A stretch of DNA of 64,000 bases, from positions 1 to 64,000 of the forward strand of contig JAKYXN010000027.1 of NCBI GenBank assembly GCA_022538095.1. Direction: 5' to 3'. A model generated the notes under the pieces. The model searched no databases. It had not been told where the DNA came from and worked only from the letters and a program-made list of their open reading frames with translations. Below, piece after piece: positions 7,119-57,564 of the stretch; the first letter of the stretch is position 1, and each line of letters starts with the position of its first letter. The position numbers and the translations under genes are program-made. The DNA is from Puniceicoccaceae bacterium K14 (GTDB lineage Bacteria > Verrucomicrobiota > Verrucomicrobiia > Opitutales > Opitutaceae).

Positions 7119-7136
7119 AGCGTCTCTGTTTTTTGA

Positions 7137-7949: not shown

Positions 7950-8162
7950 AGCTAATTATCTTATCTATGTAACGAAGGAGGGGAGATTTGCAATGCGTTT
8001 TCGTATTTGACGATGTTCAGATGTGCGAGCCGCTGGCTGGTAAGCGCTTTTTTGCATATCCTAGATGGTTATAATTGCAGTATGCGGCTTAGCCTATAAC
8101 GGTCTGAGGTAAAGAGAGTTGTCCATTTGCAAAGAGATAGTTAACCATTAATCATTCTTTTT

Positions 8163-10715: not shown

Positions 10716-12785
10716 CTAAAATTTACATCCCGCAGTTATTTGGAACGCCCGTCCGTCACCCAATGTACCTTTATCAAGAAGTGAAGAGTTGATAGGGTTA
10801 AGAGGATAACGTATTGTCTTATCAAAAATATTGTTCACCTTCAGTGCGACGTACATTTGTTTCCAAATATTATCCATTCGGATAGAGGCGTCAAAAACGG
10901 CATAGCCCCCGGATGTATCGCCGGCTGGCTCCAGGCTTTCTAAGTTATAAAATGGAGTCATTCCGCTAACGTATCGACCAATTAAAGCTGATGAAAGCTT
11001 TTCGTCTTCGTAAATGAGCTTTCCGTGTGCGACAGTCTTGGGTGAGTAGGTCACCTCGCGTTCTGGAAAGGTCTCGTCTTTAGAATCCTGTAATGTAATT
11101 GACAATTCGCTACGAAATTTTTCTCCGATGCGTTGCTGCAAGATTACTTCAGCTCCAATTGTATCAAGTTTGTTTCCTACGTTTGTCTTGGTTGCCAATG
11201 AACCGGTTGGTTCTACTTGTAGGTATTCGATCAATAGGTTGGAAAGGGAGTTCTGAAACAAACTAATGCTGAGCAGTGTATTTTCAACTGCTAACGTGTA
11301 CATCGCTTCCAACGTTCTTACATCTTCTGTGCCGTTGCCTCTAAGAGTTGAAGCTACTTTGGTGGCATCACCCGCCATTAGTTTAAATTGTTGGCTTTCA
11401 GAAACTTGATATATTAAAGAAATCCTTGGAGTTGTATTCGTGATTTCTGCAGGCATGCGAACAACGTCTTCAGTTGTATCACTTGCAACGATACGCGCAT
11501 AGGTCTTTATTCTTTCGACTCTGACTCCGCCAATCATTCTCACCTTAGGAGCGATCTCGTAGTTTATTTGGGCGAAGGCTGATTGGGTATCTCGTTGATC
11601 AATGTCTACTGTTTCGTTGGAAACTTGAACTCTGGGAATATGTGTGTACTCGTGGAGGTCTTCTAGTCGTTTACCATTGAAGCCTAGAGTTAAGTGAAAC
11701 TCATCAGATGGGGCGTGCGCTAAAACCGATTCGATCTCCCAGCTTACGAAGTCGAGATCGCTTATAGCTATAATGCCTGGGATAATTGCATCATAGTCTC
11801 GATCTGATTCAAAGGAGTTTCGGCTAATCCAGGTATCCACAGTAGTCTCTGGATTTATTTGGAACTTATAGCCCAATGTTAATCGTGAGTTCGTAGATCT
11901 GTCTATACTTCCGTCCACCAATGGAGGTAGCACATAAAAAATTTCTGTATCGGAATTGTTGTAACTATAGTCGAAATGAAAATTCTTCCATTCTCCCGCT
12001 ATTTGTAGATTGGTAGTCTCTATTTCAAGCTTATCATCCAAGTCTGTGTCTAGCTCTGGAATGGTGGGTCGAAGCGATTCTGGAACGTTTTCTAGTGTTA
12101 TAAGATCCGATAAGGTTGGGCTGAGTCCACCGGTGCGATAGTGACCAGCATTAACGACGAGATTGAAATCTTTTATCTGCGTAGACCAGCGTAATGCGGC
12201 CCGCGTGGTGGAATTTGAGCCGTAGCTTGCTACCACTTGATCTTGATGAAAAAAATCGTTGGTTATAATATTGATGGCACCGAAGAATGCTCCGTTGCCG
12301 TACATCACGGAATTTGGTCCTTTAATGATTTCGATGCGATCAATCGATTCGACTGGAAGAAATATAGAACTAGTTGGAGTTGAACGATTGTCTAACCTTG
12401 CTTGTGGTACTCCATTTACAAGAAACGCGACGCTGCCGTTCTGAGATCTACCATTCCAGTAACCTCGCATACCAAAATTACCGCTTATGCCGTTGTAATT
12501 GTTTATATTATATAAGCCGGGAACGTTTTCTAGAACTTCGGTAATGGAGCTGTACCCCTGTCTCTCTATATCTTTACGATCAATCAGGTAAACACTAGCA
12601 GGCGTATTTTGAATAGTTTCTGGAAGTTTTGCGGAAGTACTAATCTCTACCTGCATCAGTTCGTCCAAGGACAGACCGGAGAGATCAAACTCATTAGAAG
12701 TGGGGTCTGCCCTAAGTGTAGTGAAAAGGGAAATGCTAATGAATACTACCCAGTGGTGAAAGCGGAGTTTTGAAAAAATATTCAC
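10716..12785 (-). CDS. TonB-dependent outer membrane receptor
   Basis: Beta-barrel receptor for energised uptake of a scarce ligand across the outer membrane. From the GTG at 12785 it has a good signal peptide (MNIFSKLRFHHWVVFISISLFTTLRA, split here as two stretches), then a short SLDELMQVEISTSAK segment and a plug domain with TPASVYLIDRKDIERQGY, VPGLYNINNYNGISG and IEIIKGPNSVMYGNGAFFGA. The rest is barrel strands ending in Lys-Phe, the usual C-terminal Phe for outer-membrane insertion. A TTG at 12830 would give a longer, less convincing N-terminus. The plug opening (LMQVEISTSAK) resembles colicin I/vitamin-type receptors. No SusD partner is present, and no ligand can be inferred. Adjacent genes are not co-directional. 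Confidence 0.93.
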   Translation of the reverse strand: MNIFSKLRFHHWVVFISISLFTTLRADPTSNEFDLSGLSLDELMQVEISTSAKLPETIQNTPASVYLIDRKDIERQGYSSITEVLENVPGLYNINNYNGISGNFGMRGYWNGRSQNGSVAFLVNGVPQARLDNRSTPTSSIFLPVESIDRIEIIKGPNSVMYGNGAFFGAINIITNDFFHQDQVVASYGSNSTTRAALRWSTQIKDFNLVVNAGHYRTGGLSPTLSDLITLENVPESLRPTIPELDTDLDDKLEIETTNLQIAGEWKNFHFDYSYNNSDTEIFYVLPPLVDGSIDRSTNSRLTLGYKFQINPETTVDTWISRNSFESDRDYDAIIPGIIAISDLDFVSWEIESVLAHAPSDEFHLTLGFNGKRLEDLHEYTHIPRVQVSNETVDIDQRDTQSAFAQINYEIAPKVRMIGGVRVERIKTYARIVASDTTEDVVRMPAEITNTTPRISLIYQVSESQQFKLMAGDATKVASTLRGNGTEDVRTLEAMYTLAVENTLLSISLFQNSLSNLLIEYLQVEPTGSLATKTNVGNKLDTIGAEVILQQRIGEKFRSELSITLQDSKDETFPEREVTYSPKTVAHGKLIYEDEKLSSALIGRYVSGMTPFYNLESLEPAGDTSGGYAVFDASIRMDNIWKQMYVALKVNNIFDKTIRYPLNPINSSLLDKGTLGDGRAFQITAGCKF

Positions 12786-12980
12786 GGGGTGATTGTAGGG
12801 AGTCAATTTAGGCTTAGCACTTAAATGCAAATAAGATGATCGAGGTAAAATTTTCAGGCAAAGCTCTGATGAGGCAAGGAATTATGGATGATTTAGGTGA
12901 TGATACTAGGGCACTTTCGCAGGCTTAAATGCGATTTTTCTAGCCACCCCGGGGCTATGTGACTTTCCTGACAGCCTGTT

Positions 12981-13574: not shown

Positions 13575-14003
13575 CTAGAGAGCCTTCAGTTGGCTTAGAA
13601 ATTCAGCAGCTCCACCATGAGTGTAACCTAACTTGCCGATTACTTCTCCTTCTGAGTTGAGCGCTAGAATGGTCGGAAATCCTCTTACTCCGTGTTTGTC
13701 GAGAAGCTTTTTGTTTTGTTCCTTCAATTCCGCAGACTGTGGGATTTTGCTCGGAAAGTCCAACTTAAGGAGAACGAGGTTTTCGTCCGCGTAGTCTTTG
13801 AACATTTTATCTGAGAAAATTTCGCCTTCGATCTTCTTACACCAGTGGCACCAGTCAGATCCTGTGAAATTCATAAGTAAGACTTTGTCTTCCGTCTTAG
13901 ACTCGTTAATTGCGGCTGCCGCGTCTTCTGTCCATTCCGAAGCTGATACACTGGCGGCGATAAATGCGATTGCGAATGTGAGTGTTGATAGAATTCGTTT
14001 CAT
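13575..14003 (-). CDS. Secreted thioredoxin-like protein with WCHWC active site
   Basis: Periplasmic or surface thiol-disulfide protein. I start it at the ATG at 14003, where a clean signal peptide begins (MKRILSTLTFAIAFIAASVSA), giving about 142 residues; the longer open frame adds 20 residues without such a signal. The active site is FTGSDWCHWCKKIEGEIF, followed by the thioredoxin cis-Pro region RGFPTILAL and a final FLSQLKAL helix. The CHWC dipeptide and the SDWCHWC context resemble the DsbD-gamma/thioredoxin_7 group rather than classical CGPC thioredoxin. A second protein with the identical FTGSDWCHWC string is at 52350-52811. It is monocistronic. Confidence 0.9.
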   Translation of the reverse strand: MKRILSTLTFAIAFIAASVSASEWTEDAAAAINESKTEDKVLLMNFTGSDWCHWCKKIEGEIFSDKMFKDYADENLVLLKLDFPSKIPQSAELKEQNKKLLDKHGVRGFPTILALNSEGEVIGKLGYTHGGAAEFLSQLKAL

Positions 14004-14212
14004 ATTGTTGAAGAATACGTCTGGTTGGAAATTTTGAATGCCCGAGTTTGTGATAAATGTCACTGTAAGTTGGTTAGCCCCTCGAGAATACCTTGGTGTT
14101 CCGTGATTATATATCCACTTAGAATTTTTTAGTCTGTCAAAAGATTCTCGTTGTACCAGGCGAACAAACCTGTAAATACTCCGGCAAACCTTATAATTAT
14201 AAATTCATATCG

Positions 14213-43087: not shown

Positions 43088-43482
43088 GTCTGGTAGTAGA
43101 TTTGAGAGGTTCTGGGAAGAATGGAATAAAGGGATACCCGATCTTGGGCAAATGAGTAATCGGCTACGAATTCGTAGACTTAAGCCAGTGATTGAGCAAA
43201 AAAGTACTCATTGATTTTTGTTTGAACTTAGCTTGGGTTATTTTTCTAAGTATTTGCCCTTGTGTACCTTAGTGGGAGATGTACACTATTTGTTAGTGTT
43301 AAATATTTTATGACAAGGGTTTGGAGCGAGTTTACCTGTGTAACTTATCTCAGGAATCGTCATCCGAATGGCTGGCCGCCTATGCTTATGTACTTGGTCT
43401 AGGTTGATAGGCCACCTCATGTTTTTACGAAAATAGTTAAGTCACCAGACTGTCACCCAAACAATTAGTACCCTTGCTCATA
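43088..43482. other. Gene-free stretch upstream of the first giant lyase
   Basis: About 395 bases between two divergent genes. No protein-coding frame of convincing composition, no tRNA or hairpin terminator found. It should contain the promoters for the chemoreceptor and the lyase; AT-rich stretches around 43290-43312 (TTAGTGTTAAATATTTTATG) are possible promoter sequence, but no clear consensus. Confidence 0.4.
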
Positions 43483-46400
43483 ATGAGACGTTCTTTAGAA
43501 ATTGCATTTGCTCTAATATTTAAAAGTGCCCTAATTGGGGGATTTTCAGCTACATTGTCAGCTGTTGATACGGACAATGACGGAATAGATGATGACTTCG
43601 ACTTGTTTCCTAATGACCCACTTGAATGGAGTGACTTTGACCGAGACGGTGTGGGGAATAACTCCGATACTTTACAAGAGTTCAATGACGGAGCAGAGTA
43701 TGAGTTTTCCGAGGGGCACGAAAACCCCTTTTGGTACTCTTTTCGGGTTAACAATGCTACCTTGAATATTTCAGGGGGGATTCTCGAAGGGCAAACTCTT
43801 GATAATGTTTGGGATACCTGGGTGGGTGGCAATGCTGCCGGGCAGCGTGGCGTTGTGAATATGTCAGGTGGAGATGTTACGATGAATTTCATCGAAATCG
43901 CTCGTGGAGCTGGCTCTGAAGGTGCTTTCTACCAAAGTGGCGGGGCATTAAAACTTCCCTCTGAATCGCGTAAGAATCCTTACAATTTCTTTATCGGAGG
44001 AAATGACGGTGGAACTGGAGGAATAGGTATGTATGAAATTCGAGGTGGCTCGATAGCCACCAGAGGGGGAGTGGAAATTATTTCTGCTGGTTCTGTGTTC
44101 AGCGTTGTTGGGTCCGGACCTGAATCAATCGCGTTGGGTAGCATCGATTTGGAAAATACGCATCCTGGTACGCGCGATGACATGAATTACGATGGAGCTT
44201 GGTTGCAGCAACCTGGAGCAATTTTGCAGTTGGCTATAGATCAAGGGGGCCTTACTCCAATTATCCTTGATGGGCCAAGTTCGGGTGCTCGTTTCGAAGA
44301 AGGAGCTCTTCTCGATTTGAGTTTTACTGGCGATGCCATTGAGGGGAGTTGGGTGGCTATGCAATGGGTTGGTGGACTTGAAGACCTTGGTTTGTCTGTG
44401 GTTGCGGATGACGCTATTGAGGGCTGGAGTTTTTCTTTTGAGGACCGAGATAGCGCGGTTGTTGGAGATGACACTCTGATTGTTTCGTTCGAACCGTTTG
44501 ACCCAGCGGACCATCTCATAAAAGATGCCGAAGAAAGTTTGAAAATTGAATTCTCGTTTAGCGATCCATTCCGTTTTACGATTGATACAATTGATGGACC
44601 GAGATCAATTCCAGGAGACGTTATATTCGCCGAAGGATCGATCCTCGATATTAGCTTGAACAGGGGCGAAGTTGAAGAGGGGAGCTGGATCGTTTTCCAA
44701 TGGGAAGGCAGTTTAAATGATAACGGACTGCAGCTTAGTGCAGACGATGTGGCTGCGGGGTGGAGCTTTTCGTACGAAGACAATGGTATAAGCGAGAATG
44801 GCTTAGATACCTTAATCCTTACATACAAAACTCCAATTGATGTAAGTTTAGGGCGGACGTTTCAACACCCAGGGCTCGTACATAAACGGAGCGACTTGGA
44901 TCGAGCCAAATACAATATTGAAGCGGGGCTAGAGCCCTGGGCTTCTTCTTTTGCTGAGTTGGCAGCAAACCCATTTTCCAGTTATGATTACGATGTCGCG
45001 GGTGACCCTAGTTGGGAGCTTTTGAATCGAGAGAACCCAAGAATTCGTGGAAATGAATTTCAGTCGGATTTTGAGGCAGCCTATCAAAATTCTCTCATGT
45101 GGTATTTTACGGGCGACCAACGACACGCGGATAAGGCGATAGAAATTTTGAATACGTGGAGCAATTTGAAGTATGTAACGGGTATCCCGTTGGGGGCAGG
45201 TATCTACGGGCATCAAATGTTGCAATCCGCCGAAATTATAAGAAATACAAATGCCGGTTGGAAAGAAGAGGATATAAAGAAATTTGAAGCGATGCTCTTG
45301 TATCCGGGTTACTCAAACGAACAAGCCCCGGTTACTGACCTAGCGAATGATCGAGTTTCGTTCTATTGGAAATGCTATGTGGGTGATTCTAGTAGGGCGG
45401 GGAATCAAGATGCGTCGTGCTACCTCACTTTGATGGCGATTGGGGTCTTTTTAGACAATGCGATAATATACGAGCGTGGACTTCGGTATTTTAGAGATCA
45501 GCCGCACAATGACTTTGATTTACCTTATCCGTCAGGTCCTCACATTTCAACTACAGTTTCTTTAGAGACTCCTTATCAAATTTCTTGGAATTTCGTAAAA
45601 GACGACTCTATTGAAGACTATGGGTTCGATGGTGTATTGACTAATTACATCATTCCTAGTGGGCAAACACAGGAAACATCTAGGGATCAGTCTCACACTT
45701 TTTTAGGGATAAGTTTTTTGACTCGTGCAGCGGAAATTGCCTGGAACCAAGGAGACGATCTCTATGGTTGGGCTGATGATCGCCTGTTGTCGGGGTATGA
45801 ATACAACGGACGTTACAATGCTTCCTTTTTGCGGTCATATGAAGATCAGCCTGAGCCGTGGGAACCTTCAGTTGAGTCAGGAGAATTCGAGCAAATTGAA
45901 TCGCGTACAGGACGAACGACTTCACTGGCACCGAACCCTTGGGTCGGAGCAGACCTGACGCGCCCTTCTCGTGGGAATAGTGCCTTTATTGGTCGGCCGT
46001 TTTTTGAAATGCCTCTTAGTCATTATAAATATAGAACGAATCTCGATGAAGAAGACTACAAGTGGCTCCAACGTATAGTCGATATTAGCATTGAAGAAAA
46101 AGGCGGTTTCGAAGGGATGTCTGCAACTACATTAGATGCAACTGGTTTCGGGGCAATGAGTCATAGGCGAGGAGTGGGAATGGCTGGAGATCCAGTTGGA
46201 GAATTCAATGGAAATGTTCCGGAGTTCAATATTCCATTTATCCCAGGAATCGTTGAAGCAGAAAATTTCGATTTCTACATTCAAGAAGCGGGAGGTGGTG
46301 AAGGAATTACTTACCATGATTCTGATGATACGAATACTGGCGGAGAATACCGAATAGAGGAAGCTGTTGATATTGAGGTATGCTCGGAAGGTGGTTTTAA

Positions 46401-47631
46401 TTTAACTAATATGGAAAATGGAGAGTGGATTACTTACACTGTTCATGTTCCTGTATCAGGAGACTACAATATATCTGTGCGCTATGCGTCTGTTTCAGGT
46501 GAAGGTAGCATTCGATTTGCCTTCGCCGGAAGTGATGTGACCGGAGATGAATCATTACCCGCGACAGGTTCAGAGACTAACTGGAGTACGCATACAGTTG
46601 CGGAAAACGTTTCGATTGAAAAGGGCGTACAAGCGATGCGTCTATTCGTATCCGGAGACTCTAATGCTTATCTTTTAAATTCGATGATTCTTGAGCTTGT
46701 GACTTCTGATTTGACGACCAGATTCCAAGCGGAGGATTTTGGAACGGGTCGAGGTGTATCCATTGGAGAGTCTACAGATGAAGGTGGAGGGAGCATTATC
46801 GAATCGGCCCAAAGTGGATCCTGGTCTCAATATGACAGCATTTTCTTAGGGACAGCTTCTAAAATGAAATTTCGTGTTGCTCGCCCGGAAGGCACACCTT
46901 CTGGACGAATAGATATTCGATTAGGAGACCAAGGCGGTGAAATCGTTGGTTCAGTTGAAGTTCCAGTCACTGGTGGTTGGGATCAATGGGCAACTATTGA
47001 GACTGTCATTGGGTCAGCTGATGGAGCGAACAATGTCTTTTTGGTATACGAACAGAACGACAACTCAGCCCGTGCTCCCTTGTTTAATTTCAATTGGTTC
47101 GAACTTGGTTTTCTTGATACGGCGAAAGGACTTAAGGTTGAGGCTTTGGAAGGGGATCAAGCAACCATTTCTTGGGAGCCGGCGAAAGGTGCGACAGGCT
47201 ATTCTCTAAAACGTTCGAATCTCAGTGGTGGTCCTTATGATGAGATAGGATTTCTGAGTTCTACAGAAAGAAGCTTTTTGGATACGAACGTTGAGGAAGG
47301 GACTCAGTATTTCTACATTGTTAACTCTATCTACAATGATACAGAGGGAGTGGCTTCAGAGGAATTAATTGTGATTCCTTCGAAGGCTGTTAACTTGGAA
47401 GAGGCAAGTCTCTATGTCATGCGAAGAGTGGAAAATAATAGTCTTGCGATTTTGATTCCCAATACAGAAATCGGTCATGTCTACACATTGCAAAAGACAA
47501 GCTCATTAGAGGAACCTGTTTGGGAATATGTCGGCGAAGCTTTAGAAGGAACGGGTGGTGAGTTAGAAATAGAACTGCCTATCGATTCGTTCGATCCATC
47601 GATGTATTACCAATTGGAGGTTTCTCGCTAG
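43483..47631 (+). CDS. Giant secreted alginate-lyase-type protein with CBM6 and FN3 modules (copy A)
   Basis: Secreted polysaccharide lyase candidate of 1382 residues, starting at ATG 43483 (signal MRRSLEIAFALIFKSALIGG...ATLSA). Residues ~30-65 hold TSP3-like calcium repeats (DTDNDGIDDDFDLFPNDP, DFDRDGVGNNSD). Then a beta-strand-rich region (~80-450) resembling adhesin/autotransporter repeats, containing two copies of an ~85-residue module ending in GWSFSFED or GWSFSYED. The catalytic toroid begins FQHPGLVHKRSDLDRAKYN (Phe460) to about 890; its signature is QETSRDQSHTFLGISFL with Arg734 and His738. CBM6-like modules start at ~924 (VEAENFDF) and ~1081 (FQAEDFG), FN3 at ~1217, and a C-terminal domain ends YYQLEVSR. 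PL5/PL38-like alginate lyase superfamily is my best assignment; alginate itself is not proven. Confidence 0.85.
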   Translation: MRRSLEIAFALIFKSALIGGFSATLSAVDTDNDGIDDDFDLFPNDPLEWSDFDRDGVGNNSDTLQEFNDGAEYEFSEGHENPFWYSFRVNNATLNISGGILEGQTLDNVWDTWVGGNAAGQRGVVNMSGGDVTMNFIEIARGAGSEGAFYQSGGALKLPSESRKNPYNFFIGGNDGGTGGIGMYEIRGGSIATRGGVEIISAGSVFSVVGSGPESIALGSIDLENTHPGTRDDMNYDGAWLQQPGAILQLAIDQGGLTPIILDGPSSGARFEEGALLDLSFTGDAIEGSWVAMQWVGGLEDLGLSVVADDAIEGWSFSFEDRDSAVVGDDTLIVSFEPFDPADHLIKDAEESLKIEFSFSDPFRFTIDTIDGPRSIPGDVIFAEGSILDISLNRGEVEEGSWIVFQWEGSLNDNGLQLSADDVAAGWSFSYEDNGISENGLDTLILTYKTPIDVSLGRTFQHPGLVHKRSDLDRAKYNIEAGLEPWASSFAELAANPFSSYDYDVAGDPSWELLNRENPRIRGNEFQSDFEAAYQNSLMWYFTGDQRHADKAIEILNTWSNLKYVTGIPLGAGIYGHQMLQSAEIIRNTNAGWKEEDIKKFEAMLLYPGYSNEQAPVTDLANDRVSFYWKCYVGDSSRAGNQDASCYLTLMAIGVFLDNAIIYERGLRYFRDQPHNDFDLPYPSGPHISTTVSLETPYQISWNFVKDDSIEDYGFDGVLTNYIIPSGQTQETSRDQSHTFLGISFLTRAAEIAWNQGDDLYGWADDRLLSGYEYNGRYNASFLRSYEDQPEPWEPSVESGEFEQIESRTGRTTSLAPNPWVGADLTRPSRGNSAFIGRPFFEMPLSHYKYRTNLDEEDYKWLQRIVDISIEEKGGFEGMSATTLDATGFGAMSHRRGVGMAGDPVGEFNGNVPEFNIPFIPGIVEAENFDFYIQEAGGGEGITYHDSDDTNTGGEYRIEEAVDIEVCSEGGFNLTNMENGEWITYTVHVPVSGDYNISVRYASVSGEGSIRFAFAGSDVTGDESLPATGSETNWSTHTVAENVSIEKGVQAMRLFVSGDSNAYLLNSMILELVTSDLTTRFQAEDFGTGRGVSIGESTDEGGGSIIESAQSGSWSQYDSIFLGTASKMKFRVARPEGTPSGRIDIRLGDQGGEIVGSVEVPVTGGWDQWATIETVIGSADGANNVFLVYEQNDNSARAPLFNFNWFELGFLDTAKGLKVEALEGDQATISWEPAKGATGYSLKRSNLSGGPYDEIGFLSSTERSFLDTNVEEGTQYFYIVNSIYNDTEGVASEELIVIPSKAVNLEEASLYVMRRVENNSLAILIPNTEIGHVYTLQKTSSLEEPVWEYVGEALEGTGGELEIELPIDSFDPSMYYQLEVSR

Positions 47632-47841: not shown

Positions 47842-50800
47842 ATGATTTATATATCGTCTTTTTTGAAAACGTTTTCTTTTGCAGCCCTTATCGGGGCGGC
47901 TAGCACTACCTCTTTGTTAGGTGTTGACTTTGTTTGGAATAATGCGGGAGGCGACAATGATTTCACGAACGCTGATAATTGGGATGGAGGGGTAGTTCCA
48001 GTAGGGACTGGAAATTTTGCCCATGTAAACGAGACAGGCGAAGACCGGGTTATTGTCAGTGACGGATCCAACCAAAACCTAAGTGCAATCTCCATCGGTA
48101 TAGGAGGAGAAGGTGAAATGGAGGTTACGGGAGGGGCTTTTGTTGCAACTTCGAATTCCAATCATATTTCCCGAATTGGCGAAGCTGGAGGCAGTGGAAC
48201 TTTAAATCAGAGTGGTGGAACAGTGACCATAAATGCTCTGTATATGGGGTTCCAGGCGGATTCTGTCGGGATCTACAATCTTACGGGTGGAGATTGTGTT
48301 ATAGCGCGAGGTCAAAATGGTGCGAGTCTTTTTGTGGGCAATATAGGAGAGGGAACGTTTGAAATTTCTGGAGGCTCATTATTGACTCGGTCAGTTTTGC
48401 AATTAGCTCCGAACAACGGTACGGGTGTATTCAGTGTGGTTGGTTCGGCGGCAACCGAGATTGGCATTGGCAGCCAAGGGAGTGTCGATGGAGGATGGAT
48501 CCAAGGTGGGAATGGAACCTTGAAGGTTGCTATTGATGACGGAGGGTTGACCAAAATTTTCGTTGACGACATCGACGATGGAACTGTTGGAGGAAACGTT
48601 ACGTTTGAAAGCGGGGCTTTGTTGGACGTAGAATATATAGGTTCGGGGGATTTAACAGACGGCAGTTGGGTCGTGATGGAGTGGGAAGGCTCTTTGGAGG
48701 ATTTCGGACTAACGCTCGATGCGAATGATGCGATTTTAGGATGGAGTTTTGCTTTTGAGGACAGAGGTGTAAATGGCGATGTTGAAGGCCCTGATACACT
48801 CGTGCTCAACTATGAACCATTGGTTGATGGAGAGCATCTAATTAAGCAAGACGGTGAGACTTTAGACGTTAGCATAGCCTTTGGCGACACAGATGTAATT
48901 ACAGTTGATGGGACCGAAGGAGTAGGCTCGGTTGTGGGGAATGCTATTTTTGCAGAAGGAGCAATCCTGGATGTGAGTTATACAGGTGAGCTGGTTGAAG
49001 GAAGTTGGACAATTTTTGACTGGCAAGGGACTTTGTCAGACAATGGATTGGCTTTGTCGCCCGAGGACGAAGAAGAAGGGTGGAAAATTTCATACGAAGA
49101 CAATGGAGTTAATAGTGAAGGTTTGGATACGCTTGTATTGAGTTTTTCTGAGCCTGAAATTCTTAGCACTAATCGGAAATTTCAACATCCAGGTTTGATG
49201 CACAACAAAACGGACTTGGATCGAGTTAAATTTAATATACAGGCAGGAATCGAGCCTTGGGCTACGCAATTTTCATCCTTAGCTGCCGACGAGTTTTCGA
49301 GCTATGATTACTCAGTGCAGGGTAACGAAAGTATCACTTATCTTAATCGTGAAAACCCACCGGTTAATAGGAACCAGTTCCAAAACGATTTTACTGCAGC
49401 GTACCAAAACGCATTAATGTGGTATTTCACTGAAGACCAGCGACATGCTGATAAGGCTATCGAAATTCTTAATACTTGGAACAATTTGACACATGTTGAT
49501 GGTATCCCTTTGGGGTCAGGAATCTACGGGTGGGGTATGCTTCAGTCAGCCGAAATCATCAAGAGTACTAACGCTGGCTGGAAAGAAGAAGATATTCAGA
49601 AATTCAAGGATATGCTGGTGTACCCAGGATACTCGACTACGGAACCTGCGACAGGCGAAGTTACTTTCTACTGGAAATGTTATGTAGGGGACCGCAATCG
49701 AGCGGGAAATCAGGATATGTCCTGTTACATGACATTGATGGCAATAGGGATTTTCATGGATAATGAAATTATTTACGATCGTGGTCTACGCTATCTCAAG
49801 GGCTTACCACATCGTGCTGATGATCTCCCTTATCCATCAGGGCCTTCTCGGCGTGTTGCCCTCACGGAAGAGACTCCCTATCAACAGATATTCAGCAATG
49901 AACAACTGAATACGATTGAAGATTATGGTTTCGACGGTGTTTTGACGAACTATATTCTTCCAAGTGGCCAGTGTATGGAGACTGCTCGAGACCAATCTCA
50001 CTCCATATTAGGAATGGGCTTCCTTAGCCGTGCGTCAGAAATGGCCTGGGTTCAAGGAGATGACTTATATGGCTTTGCTGATAATCGTTTACTTGCAGGA
50101 TGGGAGTATCATTGTCGCTATAATGCATCTTTTTTAAAGTCTTACCCAGATCAACTTACACCTTGGGAACCTACAGTTGAATCAGGGGAATATGAGATCA
50201 TGCCGACGCGGACCGGTAGATCTATCGGGTTGGCTCCGAATCCTTGGGTAGCTACTGATCTTACTCGTCAATCTCGCGGAGGTGCACTCATTGATAGGCA
50301 CTATATGGAAATGCCACTAAACCATTACATGGTTCGTGCGAATCTTGACCCGGAAGAATATAAATGGTTAGAGCGAGCGAGAGACCTCGATAGAGAAGAG
50401 CGGGGCGATTTTGAGACTAGATCGACCGGAAATTTAGCGATACCAAGCTATGGAACGGCAATGTTTACTCGTTTTGAAGGTATGGCTGGAGAACCAATTG
50501 GAGGATTTGATGGTGACTTTCCTCTACTGGAAACCCCATTTCTTCCTGGAAAAGTTGAGGCGGAAAACTATGACTATTATCAGCAGGAAGCTGGTGGGGG
50601 TGAAGGGCTAACTTATCACGACTCTGATGATGTGAATTCAGGTGGTGAATACCGGCTAAATAATGGTGTAGATATAGAAGTTTGTTCGGAAGGCGGCTTT
50701 AACTTAACCGAGCTTGAGGATGGGGAGTGGTTAACTTACACGGTTCACGTTCCGGTATCTGGCACTTATGCTGTTTCCGTTCGTTATGCTTCTGCTTCAG

Positions 50801-51933
50801 GCGGCGGAGCTATTCGGTTCGCTTTCAACGGTAGCGACGTAACCGGAGATGTATCTTTGCCAGCGACAGGGTCTGATGACACTTGGGCCACTCACACTGT
50901 AGCTGAAGACGTTTCGATTGGTAAGGGAGTTCAAGCGATGCGTGTTTACGTATCTGGAAGTTCCAGTGCCTACGATTTGAATTCGATGACTGTTGAGCTA
51001 TTGGAGTCGGAACTAACGACAAGAGTTCAAGCGGAGGATTTTGAAACGGAGCGAGGCACCTCTTTAGCCGAGAGTACAGACGAAGGTGAAGGAGACATGA
51101 TTGAATCAGCTCAAGCTGGTTCTTGGTCTCAATACAATAGCTTGTTTCTAGGAACAGGATCAAAATTGAAATTCCGAGTTGCCCGAGCTGACGGGACACC
51201 TTCTGGTCGAATAGATGTTCGCTTGGGCAGCCAAAGCGGCGAATTAGTAGGATCGGTTGACGTTCCAGTTACTGGAGGTTGGGATCAATGGGAGACCATT
51301 GAGACCTTCCTTAATGCAACGGAAGGAGGAAGCACTATTTATTTGGTTTACGAGCAGAATGATAATTCACCCCGAGCTGGCATGTTTAACCTTAATTGGT
51401 TCGAACTTGATTTTCTTGATGCAGCTGACGGCTTAGTTGTTGAATCTTTGTCTGAAAGCCAGACGGCTATTTCCTGGGGAGTTGTGGAAGGGGCAACTGG
51501 ATATTCTCTGAAACGTTCGGAATCTAGTGGAGGTCCTTATGAGGAAATTGCAGTATTGAATTCGGTGGGTACAAGCTTTGTGGATACGAATCTCGAGGAA
51601 GGTGTTCGGTATTATTACGTTGTAAACACTGTCTTCAATGATTTGGAAGGAGCGGCTTCAGAAGAACTTCTAGTTATTCCTTCTGGTGAGCTTGACCAAG
51701 ATGAGGCTTCGATCTATCTCCTGCGAAATAAAGAGGATAATAATGTAGTGGTGGTTATCCCGAATACGGAACTGGGCCATTTCTATCGATTACAGGCCGC
51801 TGATTCGCTGGAAGGATCAATTTGGGAATATCTTGGCGAGGCCTTGGAAGGAACTGGAGGCGAACTCAATATTGTACTGCCTTTCGAATCCTTCGACCCA
51901 TCGATGTTCTACCAATTAGAAGTTTCTCGATAG
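47842..51933 (+). CDS. Giant secreted alginate-lyase-type protein (copy B, tandem paralogue)
   Basis: Tandem paralogue of the preceding gene, 1363 residues. Signal peptide MIYISSFLKTFSFAALIGAA then STTSLLG. Unlike copy A it lacks the TSP3-like repeats and opens with FVWNNAGGDNDFTNADNWDG, the pattern of autotransporter-type beta-strand repeats. The double ~85-residue module recurs at ~245-425. The toroid domain starts FQHPGLMHNKTDLDRVKFN at residue 447 and carries METARDQSHSILGMGFLSRA (Arg716). CBM6-like modules start at ~905 and ~1062, FN3 at ~1198, C-terminus FYQLEVSR as in copy A. The catalytic parts look about two-thirds identical by eye. Both genes are separated by 210 bases; a perfect hairpin terminator follows this one, suggesting transcription ends here. 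Confidence 0.85.
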   Translation: MIYISSFLKTFSFAALIGAASTTSLLGVDFVWNNAGGDNDFTNADNWDGGVVPVGTGNFAHVNETGEDRVIVSDGSNQNLSAISIGIGGEGEMEVTGGAFVATSNSNHISRIGEAGGSGTLNQSGGTVTINALYMGFQADSVGIYNLTGGDCVIARGQNGASLFVGNIGEGTFEISGGSLLTRSVLQLAPNNGTGVFSVVGSAATEIGIGSQGSVDGGWIQGGNGTLKVAIDDGGLTKIFVDDIDDGTVGGNVTFESGALLDVEYIGSGDLTDGSWVVMEWEGSLEDFGLTLDANDAILGWSFAFEDRGVNGDVEGPDTLVLNYEPLVDGEHLIKQDGETLDVSIAFGDTDVITVDGTEGVGSVVGNAIFAEGAILDVSYTGELVEGSWTIFDWQGTLSDNGLALSPEDEEEGWKISYEDNGVNSEGLDTLVLSFSEPEILSTNRKFQHPGLMHNKTDLDRVKFNIQAGIEPWATQFSSLAADEFSSYDYSVQGNESITYLNRENPPVNRNQFQNDFTAAYQNALMWYFTEDQRHADKAIEILNTWNNLTHVDGIPLGSGIYGWGMLQSAEIIKSTNAGWKEEDIQKFKDMLVYPGYSTTEPATGEVTFYWKCYVGDRNRAGNQDMSCYMTLMAIGIFMDNEIIYDRGLRYLKGLPHRADDLPYPSGPSRRVALTEETPYQQIFSNEQLNTIEDYGFDGVLTNYILPSGQCMETARDQSHSILGMGFLSRASEMAWVQGDDLYGFADNRLLAGWEYHCRYNASFLKSYPDQLTPWEPTVESGEYEIMPTRTGRSIGLAPNPWVATDLTRQSRGGALIDRHYMEMPLNHYMVRANLDPEEYKWLERARDLDREERGDFETRSTGNLAIPSYGTAMFTRFEGMAGEPIGGFDGDFPLLETPFLPGKVEAENYDYYQQEAGGGEGLTYHDSDDVNSGGEYRLNNGVDIEVCSEGGFNLTELEDGEWLTYTVHVPVSGTYAVSVRYASASGGGAIRFAFNGSDVTGDVSLPATGSDDTWATHTVAEDVSIGKGVQAMRVYVSGSSSAYDLNSMTVELLESELTTRVQAEDFETERGTSLAESTDEGEGDMIESAQAGSWSQYNSLFLGTGSKLKFRVARADGTPSGRIDVRLGSQSGELVGSVDVPVTGGWDQWETIETFLNATEGGSTIYLVYEQNDNSPRAGMFNLNWFELDFLDAADGLVVESLSESQTAISWGVVEGATGYSLKRSESSGGPYEEIAVLNSVGTSFVDTNLEEGVRYYYVVNTVFNDLEGAASEELLVIPSGELDQDEASIYLLRNKEDNNVVVVIPNTELGHFYRLQAADSLEGSIWEYLGEALEGTGGELNIVLPFESFDPSMFYQLEVSR

Positions 51934-52349: not shown

Positions 52350-52811
52350 TTAATGAGCCCTTGTTGAATGCTTCGATTGGTGGAGCAACTCAAGCAGGCG
52401 AATATAGTCTTCTGGTGTCGTTTCGAAATAGCCGTGGCGCCAGAGTTCTTTTCCCGAAAATGGGTCGTAAAGAATAACCGTCGGGAATGACGTAACTTCA
52501 AACTTAGCTTTTAACGTTTGGTTTTTGCGAAGGAGCTTGGGCGAAAGCTTTTTGCGTTGAGGAAAGTCGATTTTTGTAGGAATGACGATTTCTTCGATTT
52601 CCGTTTCAAAGTCCTTTTGAGCGAATACTTCTCGTTTGAGCTTGTGGCACCAGTGGCACCAATCTGATCCTGTGAAGAACAGAAGGATCAGTTTGTTCTC
52701 ATCGAGAGCTTTTTGTTGGGCTGAATTGTAGTTATCGAACCATTTTGCCTCGGCTGTGACTTGCCCAAGGTATAGTGCGACGCAGTAAAATAAAATTCGT
52801 GGAATGGTCAT
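52350..52811 (-). CDS. Secreted thioredoxin-like protein downstream of a TonB receptor
   Basis: A 153-residue periplasmic thioredoxin-like protein. The signal peptide is MTIPRILFYCVALYLGQVTA with cleavage near EAKWF. The active site is FFTGSDWCHWCHKLKREVF and the cis-Pro motif TSFPTVILYDPFSGKELW. The FTGSDWCHWC segment is identical to that of the protein at 13575-14003, though the rest is divergent. It follows the TonB receptor gene by only 9 bases on the same strand, implying an operon and a role in keeping or using thiols of the receptor or of its ligand; this coupling is inference. Confidence 0.9.
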   Translation of the reverse strand: MTIPRILFYCVALYLGQVTAEAKWFDNYNSAQQKALDENKLILLFFTGSDWCHWCHKLKREVFAQKDFETEIEEIVIPTKIDFPQRKKLSPKLLRKNQTLKAKFEVTSFPTVILYDPFSGKELWRHGYFETTPEDYIRLLELLHQSKHSTRAH

Positions 52812-52820
52812 GGCAGTCTA

Positions 52821-54998
52821 TCACCAATTGACTCCAGCCCGCATAACGTAGCTACGCGGAAAACGAGGGCCGTAGAAATAAGTGGTGTCTCGATCGGGGC
52901 CTATCGTTAGGTCAGGTTGGCGTTCGTCGAGGAGGTTTTTGACTCCTGCCATCAGATCGATGTGCAGTTCTTTTCCCCTAAGGTCTAAATGCAAATGTTT
53001 GGTGAAAGTGAGGTCAAAGACGAAGAATTCAGATGTGTTGCGGTTAAGGGAGCCTTCAGCTTCTCGCGCAGCGATCATGGGACCTGTGTATATGAGCCCT
53101 AGGAATATATCGACAAACTTATCGTTCTCGTATTTGAGTTGGGCAACGCCGCCCCATTCAGGTGTTTCTAGATAACGTTTTTCAAATACGCCTTGTAATA
53201 CTTCTTGAGCAGTTTCGAATGCAGCGTCGACGTAGGTTATGCCGACTTGAGTACTCCATTGTTTGGATAACTGGTAGATCGTATTGAGTTCAAATCCTTG
53301 AATGACGGCCCCGTCTGTATTCGTGCGTTCTTTGTATGGGTTCCCGTTGAGATCTATGTAAACGATGTCGGGAACGATGAATGTATCACGTATTTCTGTA
53401 CGATAGATGTCACCATCAACTTGCCACCGATTCCCATTGCTTTTTGGCGTCCAGACGAATCTCGCCGAAAACGAAGTAGAGCTTTCTTCGTTAAGATCAT
53501 TGGCGTTTTGTGTGCGTGTTGGATCGTCCAAAATTTCAATATGCAGGTCTTCATCGAATATTTCGGGAGCTCTGAATCCTGTAGCAATGGAAGCCCGCCA
53601 TGTCCAAGCATCGCTTGAGGTGTAGCGCAGAGCAAACCGAGGGGAGACAATCCAGTCGTCGAGCTCGGAGTGTTTATCGACTCGGACGCCAGTGATGAAG
53701 GTGGTGGATGTTGTTGGGGTCCATTCGTTTTGGGCGTAGATGCCGAGGTTTGAGAAATCTCCGCTAGCAATTGGATCTTGGCCTTTATAGTCGGCGAGTG
53801 ATCCGTCGCTGCGTAGAGCATTTCCGTGTTGGTCGCGTTTTTCGTCGAAAACATCATCGATTTGGTATTGTGCTCCCCAGGACAGGTAGTGATTTCCGAG
53901 TTGTTTTGAAAAATGGGAATCGAAATAGTGGCGTGTTGTATCTGAATACCCGTAGAGTAGACTTGAGTCTTCGAGAGCAGTTTTGTATTCTGTAGCGTCG
54001 TAATTTTCTTCTCCGGGGAGTTCTACGGAGCCTACGCCTCCATAATAGCTGTCGCGTTGTACATAGGAGAGAGAGCCAGTAAGCTGGTAATTGATCTCGC
54101 CGATTTGACTCTCCCAAGTGATGCCTCCGCGGTGCCAATCGTGTTCAAGTTGTTCGGTAATTTGAGTTTCGTGTGGCAAGAGATCGAAGGCATTTCCCCC
54201 CCGCCTTTTTTCCCAGCTGTAGGAATAGTTGAGGCTAAGCTTACCGTTTTCTGTAGGGTAGATCCACCCGTTGATCCCGATCGTTGCGAATTGCTTTTCT
54301 GTGATCTCAGAGAACCCATCGCCGTTGAGGTCGATAGCCGTATTGTCGTTGAATTGTCCGTACACAGACAACGCTGTCGCTCCTTCGGCCTGAGACCAAT
54401 CTTGGATAAAAGACATACTAGAAAAGGGCTGGCCTTTAACGCTTTCGATAGCGATATCGTAACTTTGTTTATTTACGACAGGTTCGTTGGGTAGTATATT
54501 GATTACACCTGCGACAGCACCCGGTCCATAAAGTGAAGAGGCTCCACCTTTGACGACTTCTATGCGGCTGATGAAGGCTGTGGGAATTTGTTCAATACCG
54601 TATACGGATGCGAGACCGGAGAAGAGAGGTTGACCGTCAAAGAGCAGGCGATTATAACCTGCTCCAAGTCCGAGCATTTTGATTTCCGCGGTTCCGCAGT
54701 TTTGACAGTTTGCTTCGGAGCGAACTCCAGGAAGATATTCAAGAGCGGAGGAAAGATCTCGAGCTCCCGCTGAACGGAAAGTATCGCTTGTAAGTAGCTC
54801 CGTGCGAATTGGGGCTTCCTTTGCGATGCGTTCAGTGCGAGTGCCCGTGGATACTAAATTGTAGGGGGCTAGTTTTATGGTTTCTCCGATAGGCTTATGT
54901 TCTGTTGTTTCGCAGAACGCAGCAGTGTGAAAGTTTAGTGGAAAAGCAACAATCAGCAAAGTCCGGCCTAAAAAACTAATTCTATTAATCAAAAACAT
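52821..54998 (-). CDS. TonB-dependent receptor with CxxC in the plug domain
   Basis: Outer-membrane active transporter of 725 residues. Signal peptide covers about the first 30 residues (FLGRTLLIVAFPLNFHTAAF then CETTEH). The plug includes VSTGTRTERIAKEAPIRTEL, YLPGVRSEANCQNCGTAEIK with Cys98-x2-Cys101, MLGLGAGYNRLLFDGQPLFS and FISRIEVVKGGASSLYGPGA. The barrel ends in ...MRAGVNW, an aromatic terminal residue. From memory, receptors with a Cys-x2-Cys at this plug position occur widely in Bacteroidetes-like uptake systems, often of metal or metal-complex type; the ligand here is unknown. A thioredoxin-like gene follows 9 bases downstream. The ATG sits within overlapping inverted repeats (54986-55018), suggesting operator or RNA-hairpin control. 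Confidence 0.93.
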   Translation of the reverse strand: MFLINRISFLGRTLLIVAFPLNFHTAAFCETTEHKPIGETIKLAPYNLVSTGTRTERIAKEAPIRTELLTSDTFRSAGARDLSSALEYLPGVRSEANCQNCGTAEIKMLGLGAGYNRLLFDGQPLFSGLASVYGIEQIPTAFISRIEVVKGGASSLYGPGAVAGVINILPNEPVVNKQSYDIAIESVKGQPFSSMSFIQDWSQAEGATALSVYGQFNDNTAIDLNGDGFSEITEKQFATIGINGWIYPTENGKLSLNYSYSWEKRRGGNAFDLLPHETQITEQLEHDWHRGGITWESQIGEINYQLTGSLSYVQRDSYYGGVGSVELPGEENYDATEYKTALEDSSLLYGYSDTTRHYFDSHFSKQLGNHYLSWGAQYQIDDVFDEKRDQHGNALRSDGSLADYKGQDPIASGDFSNLGIYAQNEWTPTTSTTFITGVRVDKHSELDDWIVSPRFALRYTSSDAWTWRASIATGFRAPEIFDEDLHIEILDDPTRTQNANDLNEESSTSFSARFVWTPKSNGNRWQVDGDIYRTEIRDTFIVPDIVYIDLNGNPYKERTNTDGAVIQGFELNTIYQLSKQWSTQVGITYVDAAFETAQEVLQGVFEKRYLETPEWGGVAQLKYENDKFVDIFLGLIYTGPMIAAREAEGSLNRNTSEFFVFDLTFTKHLHLDLRGKELHIDLMAGVKNLLDERQPDLTIGPDRDTTYFYGPRFPRSYVMRAGVNW

Positions 54999-55018
54999 TA
55001 TTTTGATTAGTCAAAATA
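54986..55018 (-). promoter_or_regulatory. Overlapping dyads around the receptor start codon
   Basis: Two perfect inverted repeats share one arm: TAATCAAAA (54986-54994) with TTTTGATTA (55001-55009), and TATTTTGA (54999-55006) with TCAAAATA (55011-55018). The receptor ATG is at 54998-54996, inside the six-base spacer of the first pair. As DNA this could be a repressor operator with three TTTTGA-type half-sites; as RNA, two mutually exclusive hairpins, one presenting AUG in its loop. Confidence 0.5.
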
Positions 55019-55404: not shown

Positions 55405-57564
55405 GTGACCTCTTTTTCTCGATTTTCTGTTTGTGCTTTTTCTTTGGCCATTGGTGCGATTATTTTGGTGTCTTGCTCGGAGCCAGAGTCGCAGCCTTTA
55501 GGAGCGGGGGAGCAGGCTATTTCTCAAACTGAGCCAACGGACGATTTAGCGTGGAATCACCCACAGGCGTGCTTCGAGTGTCATTCGGAAGCTCATAGAG
55601 ATTGGAAGGGGAGTCACCATGCCCGAGCGAATCGTCGTATCGATATGGATTTTGAGGATACGCCATTTGCGACAGACGAGGTAACGGATGAGGCAGGTAA
55701 CGTATATGAGTTTAAGGCGGAAGACGGTACATTTATCATTGAGGATCGATCGTTGGAGGGACATGCGCTAGAGTCTGTTGCCAAGAGTCCAGTCGATTCA
55801 GTGATCGGTACGACTCCAATCTGGCAATACTTAGTTCCTTTTCCTGGTGGGCGCTTGCAAACGCAATCACTTACCTGGGACGCGCTTGAAGAGGAATGGT
55901 ATAGCGTTTATGGAGCCGATGAACGTACTCCTGGGGATTGGGGCCATTGGACAGGGCAGGGGATGAATTGGAATTCAAATTGTGCCTTTTGCCACATGAC
56001 GGATTATAAAAAGAACTACGATTTCCATACAGACAGCTATGCTAGCACATGGCAGATCGAAGCGATTTCATGTATCCAATGTCACCAAGGTATGGAAGCT
56101 CATGTGGAATCTGCCCGACGCGGTGACTATGAATCGAAAGACTTGTCTGTGGATAAATCGATCACTATGGAAAACTGTGCTTCGTGCCATTCACGCCGCG
56201 AAGAATTGACGAAGAACGACTTCCATGCCGGCGAGTCGTTTGATGAGCATTTTCGGATGGTTCTACCGGATGTGCCGGGCTTGTATTTCGAAAATGGGCA
56301 AGCGTTGGAAGAAGATTATGTTTGGACCTCCTTTCGTCTAAGTAAGATGGGGCATGCTGGGGTGACGTGTTTTGACTGCCACGATCCTCACACTGCGGAG
56401 ACGAAGGTACCTGCGACGGACAATTCGCTTTGTATGCAGTGTCACTCTACCGGCTTGAACGAGGCTACAATAATTGACGAAAGTGCCCACAGTCATCATC
56501 CAGTTGGTACAACTGGTGCTCAATGTGTGCAATGCCATATGCCGGAGCGTGTTTATATGGGACGTGATCCAAGGCGAGATCATGGGTTTACGATTCCAAG
56601 TCCGTTGTCGACGATTGAAAGAGGAGAACCCAATGCGTGCACGCAGTGCCATAATGATCAAAGCGCAGAGTGGGCCTTGGAGCATTTTGAAAATTGGTAT
56701 GGCGATAGTGAACGTGTGAAAGAATTACATGATCGGGCTGCGGTATTGCACCGAGGGCACATGAATGAAGCCGATGCATGGCAGGATTTGATTCGCTTGG
56801 TGAACTCAGAGGAGAATCCGTATTGGCGTTCAACTTACGTCCGAATGTTGGCGAATTACCCAGAGCAAGATGACGCGCTAAAGGTAGCCTTGCAAGCTAA
56901 GCAATCGAAGAACCCTGTTGAGCGCGATGCTGCGATGATGCTTTTGACTCGTCGTCCGGACAGACTTGCAGATGTGGAGAGTGGGTTACGTGATCCTTCG
57001 AGAATGGTTCGTATTCGTTCTGCGGAGGCGTTGCGTAGTATGTACAACGGTAATCAATTGGCGTTCCGTGAATGGCGTGAGTACTTAGAAATGAATTCGG
57101 ATCGGCCAGCAGGCGCTCTACAATTAGCTGAGCTGAATTTGAGCCAAGGCAATGTAGACCTGGCCCGCCAATTAGTTCTGCAAGCAGTTGGATTTGATCG
57201 AAATAACTCATTACTCAAATACGATGCTGCCATCATTTTATCACGCGCGGGTGATTTAAAAGGAGCTCTGGCATTGTTGGAGGAAGGCCGTGAGCAGGAT
57301 GCGACAGTGGCCGTACTTGCGTATGGTCAAGGTTTGTTGCGGGCAGAATCGGGCGATTTGAGTGGTGCGATCAAATCTTTGGAAGATGCGGTTAAATTGG
57401 ATACGACGCAACCGCGCTGGTGGTACAACTTAGCGGTGAGCTATTACCAATTCGGACAATTTGAAAAGGCTGTGACTGCTGCTGAAAGGGCTTTGGAATT
57501 GGAGCCAGGAGTGCAGGCTTACTTGGAAATTATTCAGCTCGCCAAGGCTCGGGTCGACGAGTGA
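55405..57564 (+). CDS. Octaheme c-type cytochrome lipoprotein with HEAT/TPR C-terminus
   Basis: Exported redox protein of 719 residues, starting at GTG 55405. It has a lipoprotein signal with lipobox LVSC (Cys24), so it is membrane-anchored on the periplasmic or surface side. Eight CxxCH heme motifs begin at Cys56, 193, 223, 258, 322, 343, 374 and 412 (CFECH, CAFCH, CIQCH, CASCH, CFDCH, CMQCH, CVQCH, CTQCH), with additional His able to be distal ligands. Residues ~420-560 look like HEAT-type helical repeats (RDAAMMLLTRRPDRLADVES) and ~560-715 are tetratricopeptide repeats. Such multiheme-TPR proteins are frequent in Planctomycetes and Verrucomicrobia; the electron donor/acceptor is unknown. 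It is divergent from the CxxC TonB receptor and ends at a long inverted repeat. Confidence 0.93.
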   Translation: MTSFSRFSVCAFSLAIGAIILVSCSEPESQPLGAGEQAISQTEPTDDLAWNHPQACFECHSEAHRDWKGSHHARANRRIDMDFEDTPFATDEVTDEAGNVYEFKAEDGTFIIEDRSLEGHALESVAKSPVDSVIGTTPIWQYLVPFPGGRLQTQSLTWDALEEEWYSVYGADERTPGDWGHWTGQGMNWNSNCAFCHMTDYKKNYDFHTDSYASTWQIEAISCIQCHQGMEAHVESARRGDYESKDLSVDKSITMENCASCHSRREELTKNDFHAGESFDEHFRMVLPDVPGLYFENGQALEEDYVWTSFRLSKMGHAGVTCFDCHDPHTAETKVPATDNSLCMQCHSTGLNEATIIDESAHSHHPVGTTGAQCVQCHMPERVYMGRDPRRDHGFTIPSPLSTIERGEPNACTQCHNDQSAEWALEHFENWYGDSERVKELHDRAAVLHRGHMNEADAWQDLIRLVNSEENPYWRSTYVRMLANYPEQDDALKVALQAKQSKNPVERDAAMMLLTRRPDRLADVESGLRDPSRMVRIRSAEALRSMYNGNQLAFREWREYLEMNSDRPAGALQLAELNLSQGNVDLARQLVLQAVGFDRNNSLLKYDAAIILSRAGDLKGALALLEEGREQDATVAVLAYGQGLLRAESGDLSGAIKSLEDAVKLDTTQPRWWYNLAVSYYQFGQFEKAVTAAERALELEPGVQAYLEIIQLAKARVDE

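Follow-up and report, generated by a model that had tools for sequence, protein, structure and literature searches.

To our knowledge, the passage of manganese through the gram-negative outer membrane is poorly known. MnoT of Burkholderia thailandensis is a manganese-specific TonB transporter, ZnuD is a TonB zinc receptor inside the Zur regulon, and DsbH of Chlamydia is a disulfide reductase. The closest described system was reported in May 2026 from Stenotrophomonas maltophilia, where a TonB receptor with CQNC in its plug is controlled by MntR and is followed downstream by a periplasmic thioredoxin-fold protein (pTFP) bearing CAPC (PMC13217887). According to the available portion of that report, the locus is derepressed upon deletion of mntR and induced by joint limitation of manganese and iron, and synteny of the CQNC receptor with pTFP extends over Lysobacterales, Sphingomonadales and Opitutales; neither a DsbH-type partner nor a Tro link was seen in that portion, and a literature search for CQNC-type TonB receptors with a thioredoxin partner found nothing beyond this paper. 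OprC of Pseudomonas aeruginosa binds copper via Cys143 and Met147 of the plug together with His323 and Met325 of the barrel (PMC8610252, available portion), and CrtA is another copper receptor, in the available text on which neither 'thioredoxin' nor 'CXXC' occurs. The present analysis concerns a TonB-dependent receptor with a CxxC in its plug, and its thioredoxin-like neighbour, encoded in a 64,000-nucleotide stretch of Puniceicoccaceae bacterium K14 (Verrucomicrobiota; contig JAKYXN010000027.1, positions 1 to 64,000; hereafter the window).

It is proposed that the two genes form an operon of manganese limitation, in which the CxxC of the plug and an EDxH motif would make up a metal site and the thioredoxin would keep the CxxC reduced; as a whole, this proposal was judged reasonably probable. 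It is built on gene order, conservation, a common operator-like palindrome, the members of its regulon and the presence of MntR-like and DsbD-like proteins, all of which were read from the sequences.

Receptor homologues were sought in 372 genomes of the order (33 held one at E <= 1e-40) and in 387 genomes of the phylum (15 held one, 11 of these being already among the 33), and six Bacteroidota plasmid records were used out of 1233 with a receptor match. The receptor alignment comprised 49 rows including the six from Bacteroidota, and 42 distinct Verrucomicrobiota receptors were counted, L057 and L084 being taken as one split receptor (L, G and C numbers are our handles for loci, genomes and contigs). 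Three rows were left out of the midpoint-rooted receptor tree: L057, from which the part with CxxC is missing, and L081 and L084, from which that with EDxH is missing.

Invariant motifs of the receptor

The receptor (Table 1) matched the Pfam families Plug (2.9e-20) and TonB_dep_Rec_b-barrel (2.3e-31), and among solved structures the colicin I receptor CirA is the closest to it in sequence. It has cysteines at positions 29, 98 and 101, the first of which, judged by eye, falls in the signal region, and the other two within EANCQNCGT; the CxxC named in the original prediction is therefore present in the translation, and both of its cysteines are kept in every aligned homologue covering the site, down to approximately 29% identity. 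N100 is nearly fixed (0.96 in the alignment) and Q99 is common. When the receptor was aligned to CirA and PirA, the CxxC was found to follow the PGV motif and to precede the next strand, a region which we take to be the apical plug loop of solved TonB receptors.

A second motif, EDxH, follows GFRAP and presumably lies in the part that usually forms extracellular loop 7. It is invariant (Table 1), as are E505 (47 of 47 covering rows) and E282 (48 of 48). Using regular expressions, 33 receptors were found to carry both CxxC and EDxH and five to carry neither, with no discordant case, the control being small since the five include one gene twice; an earlier round had covered 23 receptors with no controls. 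Eight further receptors encoded in this genome, as cut by their loci, had no plug CxxC; one of them (L004) has a CxxC at residue 26, near the N-terminus. The GFRAP-linked EDxH was likewise absent from these eight, a weak negative as the GFRAP strand was mostly not located in them.

Two further observations concern the receptors of this genome. The segment DLNGDGFSEI, in which both Asp are invariant (Table 1), resembles, by eye, a DxNxDG calcium loop and is expected in an outer loop. Another TonB receptor (L005, in the region of G000:C336:110311-110652) bears long runs rich in His, Asp and Glu and is a candidate zinc receptor.

Recurrence of a thioredoxin-fold neighbour

The gene beginning 9 bases downstream of the receptor gene encodes, as the original prediction had it, a thioredoxin-like protein with WCHWC, borne out by the reading frames and by above-cut-off matches to Pfam Thioredoxin_2, Thioredox_DsbH and Thioredoxin_7. 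Its score against NCBIfam DsbH (NF043050; Table 1) is below the curated cut-off of 190, and it is therefore called DsbH-like; the N-terminus is signal-peptide-like by eye.

The surroundings of the receptors were scanned for [WFYH]CxxC encoded on the receptor strand within 3 kb. A CxxC thioredoxin-fold gene was found downstream of 15 of the 42 Verrucomicrobiota receptors (window included), and 13 of these partners overlap the receptor gene or start within 40 bases of it, those of L048 and L062 lying some 370-390 bases away. No partner was found upstream of any receptor, barring an overlapping 99-residue frame at L067 that was treated as spurious, and a divergent peroxiredoxin-like gene beside L049 fell outside the criteria of the scan. 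Ten partners are of DsbH type (the window, L048, L050-L053, L055-L057 and L174), that of L071 is a divergent DsbH, and four (L060, L062, L082 and L083) are members of a different family, bearing CAPC, CFNC or CPNC motifs, which may be the published pTFP. The window partner and the CAPC-like partners matched each other at just E 0.005-0.05, and the L174 partner matched two of the latter at 3e-5 and 8e-5. L174 places a receptor-DsbH pair outside the class, its receptor being approximately 36-39% and its partner 36% identical to those of the window, with SDWCALC as the active site. Pelagicoccus mobilis KCTC 13126 (L017) is a named strain with the receptor-thioredoxin pair.

Adjacency was also assessed from the side of the thioredoxin. 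In 12 genomes with 640 Plug domains between them there were 35 DsbH-like matches, of which the nine best (E <= 1.5e-27) all adjoin a CxxC receptor, a ranking that is partly expected as the window's own protein was the query. Two of the 26 weaker matches were fully placed relative to receptors: that of L071 adjoins a second CxxC receptor and that at window positions 13575-14063 lies near a non-CxxC receptor. The partners are scattered over separate clades of the receptor tree and must therefore have been gained repeatedly or lost repeatedly, and a search for the CAPC-type partner in plasmids gave no match. Recurrent adjacency in sequenced genomes thus supports the view that receptor and thioredoxin belong together. 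The protein at 13575-14063 (GSDWCHWCKK) is 31% identical to the partner and is encoded about 0.7 kb from the non-CxxC receptor (10716-12830), with an opposite-strand gene between the two and no common gene run.

The gene divergent from the receptor (55405-57564, +) encodes a lipoprotein-like protein with C-terminal TPR repeats, in which eight CxxCH motifs were counted, in agreement with its description as an octaheme protein. Its suggested role as the electron source was not sustained: no homologue was found in the 38 neighbourhoods L048-L085 (some of them short; L161-L166 and L173-L176 were outside this test), and DsbD_TM, marking a DsbD-type membrane protein, was found in all 12 genomes. A DsbD-type membrane protein is the usual electron source, and with such proteins able to donate electrons there is no need for the octaheme protein. 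Beyond the partner gene, 43474-47631 and 47842-51933 encode two similar proteins in tandem, each about 1370 residues long and polysaccharide-lyase-like by eye.

Palindromes, regulators and tro genes

A palindrome touching the receptor start codon (Table 1) is proposed as an operator for MntR; the range given in the original prediction (52350-54998) takes in neither this box nor the surrounding metal-transport regulon. Its core, TTTTGA-N4-TCAAAA, occurs at 21 exact sites in the 12 genomes compared to five for the reversed control; 11 of the 21 are at receptor or tro genes and ten are elsewhere, the gene surroundings having been viewed at five of these ten (L103, L106, L107, L108 and L110). With a relaxed core, 42 sites (reversed control, 15) were found in the nine genomes that hold a long MntR-like regulator. 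Twenty of these are at the receptor, troA or troBCD; of the other 22, nine were viewed and have no tro gene (L103, L108, L110, L192, L193 and L195-L198). The genome of the window has boxes at the receptor (C198:55001), at troA (C143:6796) and at troBCD (C292:63116), so that a single palindrome is common to the receptor and a manganese-capable importer of one genome.

In all nine genomes with the long regulator, the receptor nearest to that of the window and the tro units that were located either carry the box or share its gene run. The box scan itself led to the boxes at troBCD in G361 and G351 and to the troA genes of G000, G339, G351 and G361; ten further stretches were viewed, four of them with troA and six without a tro gene. 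At L051, L052 and L053, the tro genes come directly after the thioredoxin gene, which itself follows the receptor, and the TTTTGA box was also found upstream of two receptors with a CAPC-like partner (L060 and L062). Allowing up to two mismatches, 14 of the 42 receptors have this box.

The long regulator of the nine genomes is a DtxR-family protein of approximately 220 residues, nearest to PDB 5zr4 (titled simply a metal-dependent transcriptional regulator) and then to 8pvt, ScaR and SloR. It has Glu at the position of DtxR Cys102, which we take to be a manganese-type residue. The best NCBIfam match of this regulator (L119) was MntR (NF047407; 157.5 bits), below the cut-off of 350, and it is therefore called MntR-like, a name by similarity.

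In G062, G028 and G003 there is no long regulator and no TTTTGA box at the receptors; a short MntR-like protein is present instead, which in G028, the one genome for which the PDB comparison was made, is nearest E. coli MntR (2h09; 4.4e-32) and is encoded divergently from troA. The receptors of these three genomes have TGTAGC-N4-GCTACA upstream, as does troA in two of them. Over ten genomes this box occurs at ten sites, namely five receptors (all additional to the 14 above, and including that of G094, whose partner is CAPC-like), two troA genes, one mntR-feoAB gap and two sites viewed and found to be away from metal genes (G062:C393 and G207:C65); none was found in G000, G361, G252, G236 or G144. 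We take the box to resemble that of E. coli MntR, for which a literature search gave no confirmation. A different palindrome with a DtxR/MntR operator look, TTTAGAC-N2-GTCTAAA, was seen upstream of two of the six Bacteroidota CQNC-type receptors (L165 and L166, both Persicobacter); the manganese link may thereby reach into Bacteroidota.

Two side observations relate to the importers and the metal. The TroC-type permease (L102, 6961-8472, G000:C292, and its equivalents) has a C-terminal DtxR-type metal-binding/dimerisation domain (PF00950 with PF02742), which would give the importer a metal sensor of its own; PF02742 was matched within a long reading frame in 11 of the 12 genomes (not G003). 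At L080 a distant CxxC receptor is followed on the same strand by a gene for a CobW-type GTPase (6572-8341; PF02492). Such GTPases are often zinc-linked, and the receptors of the L080 clade may carry another metal.

Table 1. Positions in the window of the receptor, its partner, their motifs and the candidate operator
Feature	Position	Strand	Remarks
DsbH-like thioredoxin-fold protein, 153 residues	52350..52811	-	NCBIfam DsbH 96.7 bits; PDB 2ju5 9e-19
Active-site motif W-C52-H-W-C55 (SDWCHWCHK)	52647..52661	-	SDWCxWC in 9/9 close-clade partners
TonB-dependent receptor, CQNC (plug CxxC) family, 725 residues	52821..54998	-	Pfam Plug and barrel matches
E483-D484-x-H486 after GFRAP	53541..53552	-	E483, D484 and H486 in 47/47 covering homologues
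D223...D227 (DLNGDGFSEI)	54318..54332	-	Both Asp in 48/48 covering rows; L084 has a gap
Plug motif C98-Q-N-C101	54696..54707	-	Both Cys in 48/48 covering homologues
Palindrome TATTTTGA-TTAG-TCAAAATA, proposed MntR operator	54999..55018	.	8-base arms; touches receptor start codon

The likely metal, the proposed thiol step and known systems

Manganese is the likely metal of the receptor system, because it is the only metal that the TroA line, the YfeA/MntC line and MntR have in common, and the regulon strengthens this reading. The original prediction offered redox gating of the receptor, or binding by the plug of a thiophilic metal such as copper or zinc; metal uptake proved to be the right field, with copper and zinc finding no support, as the operator tracks MntR-like regulators and the ATP-binding cassette (ABC) transporters are Tro-type (zinc or manganese) or YfeA/MntC-like (manganese or iron). 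When manganese is scarce, the DtxR-family MntR would leave the palindrome, the CQNC receptor would let Mn(II) through the outer membrane, either as the free ion or as a chelate, and the Tro ABC importer, made together with the receptor, would move it through the inner membrane. The plug CxxC and the EDxH of the outer loop would form or gate the site at which the metal binds, and C98 and C101 would be kept reduced by the DsbH-like protein, for which DsbD is the probable electron donor. As the plug apex of an inserted receptor points to the outside, this reductase most likely acts in the periplasm before insertion, in competition with periplasmic oxidation. We infer the identity of the metal and the direction in which it is carried, the binding by MntR, the site for the metal, and both the occurrence and the timing of the reduction.

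Several results weigh against this reading. No partner was found within 3 kb of 26 of the 42 Verrucomicrobiota receptors, among them three close relatives (L049, L054 and L058), one further receptor (L077) being unjudged as its contig ends beside the gene; nor was a same-strand CxxC thioredoxin gene found within 3 kb of any of the six Bacteroidota receptors. The partner is thus not obligatory as judged from gene neighbourhoods, since receptors with the same CxxC do without an adjacent one. The expectation that the pair would co-occur in other genomes held in part, with partners from two or more families at 15 of the 42, and the finding that the original prediction named as speaking against it, receptors with this CxxC generally having no thioredoxin partner, was made in part. 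Neither box was found at 23 of the 42 receptors. In the large clade around L063-L080, 14 of 15 receptors are without one, as are the second receptors of G339 (L071), G062 (L073) and G028 (L085) and two receptors that have a partner (L082 and L174, the latter's a DsbH). For this reason the manganese reading has its best support in the clade to which the window receptor belongs. The TGTAGC box was not enriched (10 sites versus 9 in the reversed control), and the argument from it is therefore one of location. The second-best match of the long regulator, 8pvt, is titled a putative iron-dependent repressor, and the binding protein at L051 is nearest TroA (3.6e-65), a zinc/manganese protein. Mn(II) prefers oxygen and nitrogen ligands to thiolates. 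AlphaFold2 models of the receptor (6 sequences) and of the plug alone (5 sequences) were unusable, with a mean predicted local distance difference test score of 42.7 and 34.1, and gave no CxxC-EDxH geometry. Reduction of CQNC by the partner and a role for CQNC in binding manganese have already been proposed for S. maltophilia, with function left for testing in the available portion of the report (PMC13217887); the 'plausible new mechanism' of the original prediction has been overtaken by this.

A narrower version of the proposal, which is possible and at present doubtful, holds that the metal site is licensed by redox state: the outward-facing dithiol of the plug would be reduced in transit by a periplasmic reductase of differing thioredoxin families, and only reduced receptors made during manganese starvation would capture metal between CxxC and EDxH. 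It is rather unlikely, by our estimate, that the CxxC instead forms a disulfide with a structural or regulatory function in the plug, which the thioredoxin would only help to fold or isomerise, with the metal bound elsewhere, for example by EDxH alone. The retention of CxxC where no thioredoxin gene is adjacent, the poor affinity of Mn(II) for thiols and the presence of a general DsbD in 12 of 12 genomes would all suit such a disulfide, yet the near-fixed N100 and the common Q99 go beyond what a simple disulfide seems to require, and partners recur from at least two thioredoxin families.

Import of zinc was considered distinctly unlikely. Zinc is classically bound by two thiolates with His or Asp, and it is among the metals that Tro importers can transport; moreover, TroA of Treponema pallidum, the nearest relative of the L051 binding protein, is termed zinc-binding in entry 1k0f, and the zinc protein AztC is the best NCBIfam match, below cut-off, for the binding proteins of both L051 and L059. 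Against this, the operators track DtxR/MntR-type regulators (Fur-family proteins, a family that includes Zur, are also present in 12 of 12 genomes), the receptor at L059 is followed by a binding protein nearest the manganese or iron proteins YfeA (1.2e-128) and MntC (6.3e-112), zinc would seem a better fit for the His-rich receptor L005 of this genome, and the CQNC receptor of S. maltophilia is under MntR (PMC13217887, available portion). That the thioredoxin acts on the cargo, reducing an oxidised metal or chelate such as Mn(III) or Fe(III), would fit its periplasmic location and is quite improbable, as the DsbH-like proteins are nearest a protein-disulfide reductase. As for copper, the receptor scored 22.4 bits against the NCBIfam copper-receptor model TIGR01778 (cut-off 472.45), which we take to be of the OprC/NosA type, and the regulon is that of a manganese/zinc ABC importer, no search having been aimed at copper genes. 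An OprC-like binding of copper, or of some other thiophilic metal, is accordingly rated highly improbable, even though a plug Cys with a barrel His is a layout that the two receptors appear to have in common (PMC8610252, available portion).

Under the manganese proposal, two invariant motifs, two MntR-type operator candidates and a recurrent thiol-active neighbour make up a concrete, testable system, and the thiol step, if true, would represent a novel form of control over a TonB receptor. By description only, the system is like MnoT in its proposed TonB-dependent entry of manganese, and it is like ZnuD in being a TonB receptor within a metal-repressor regulon, which in the case of ZnuD is that of Zur and zinc. 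The partner shares its thioredoxin-fold family with DsbH of Chlamydia by profile and by PDB 2ju5; unlike DsbH, it scores half the NCBIfam cut-off and adjoins a receptor gene. OprC likewise joins a plug Cys to barrel residues including His, as CxxxM-HxM compared to the putative CxxC and EDxH site here (PMC8610252, available portion), and unlike OprC the window receptor fails the copper-receptor model. With the CQNC locus of S. maltophilia, as far as the available portion of PMC13217887 goes, the window has in common the plug CQNC and the downstream thioredoxin-fold gene, and MntR-type control is predicted for it. It differs in that the partner is DsbH-like with WCHWC and not a CAPC pTFP (the pTFP sequence of the paper was not compared), in that the inner-membrane importer is of Tro type and not MntH, and in that the candidate operator, at which binding by MntR is predicted, is TTTTGA-N4-TCAAAA and not the box of that paper. 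As far as seen in the literature searched, three features are new, namely a partner of DsbH type, a TroABCD regulon having operators of two types, and the invariant EDxH, and the system of the window is a variant of the recently described kind with a different redox partner and a different importer.

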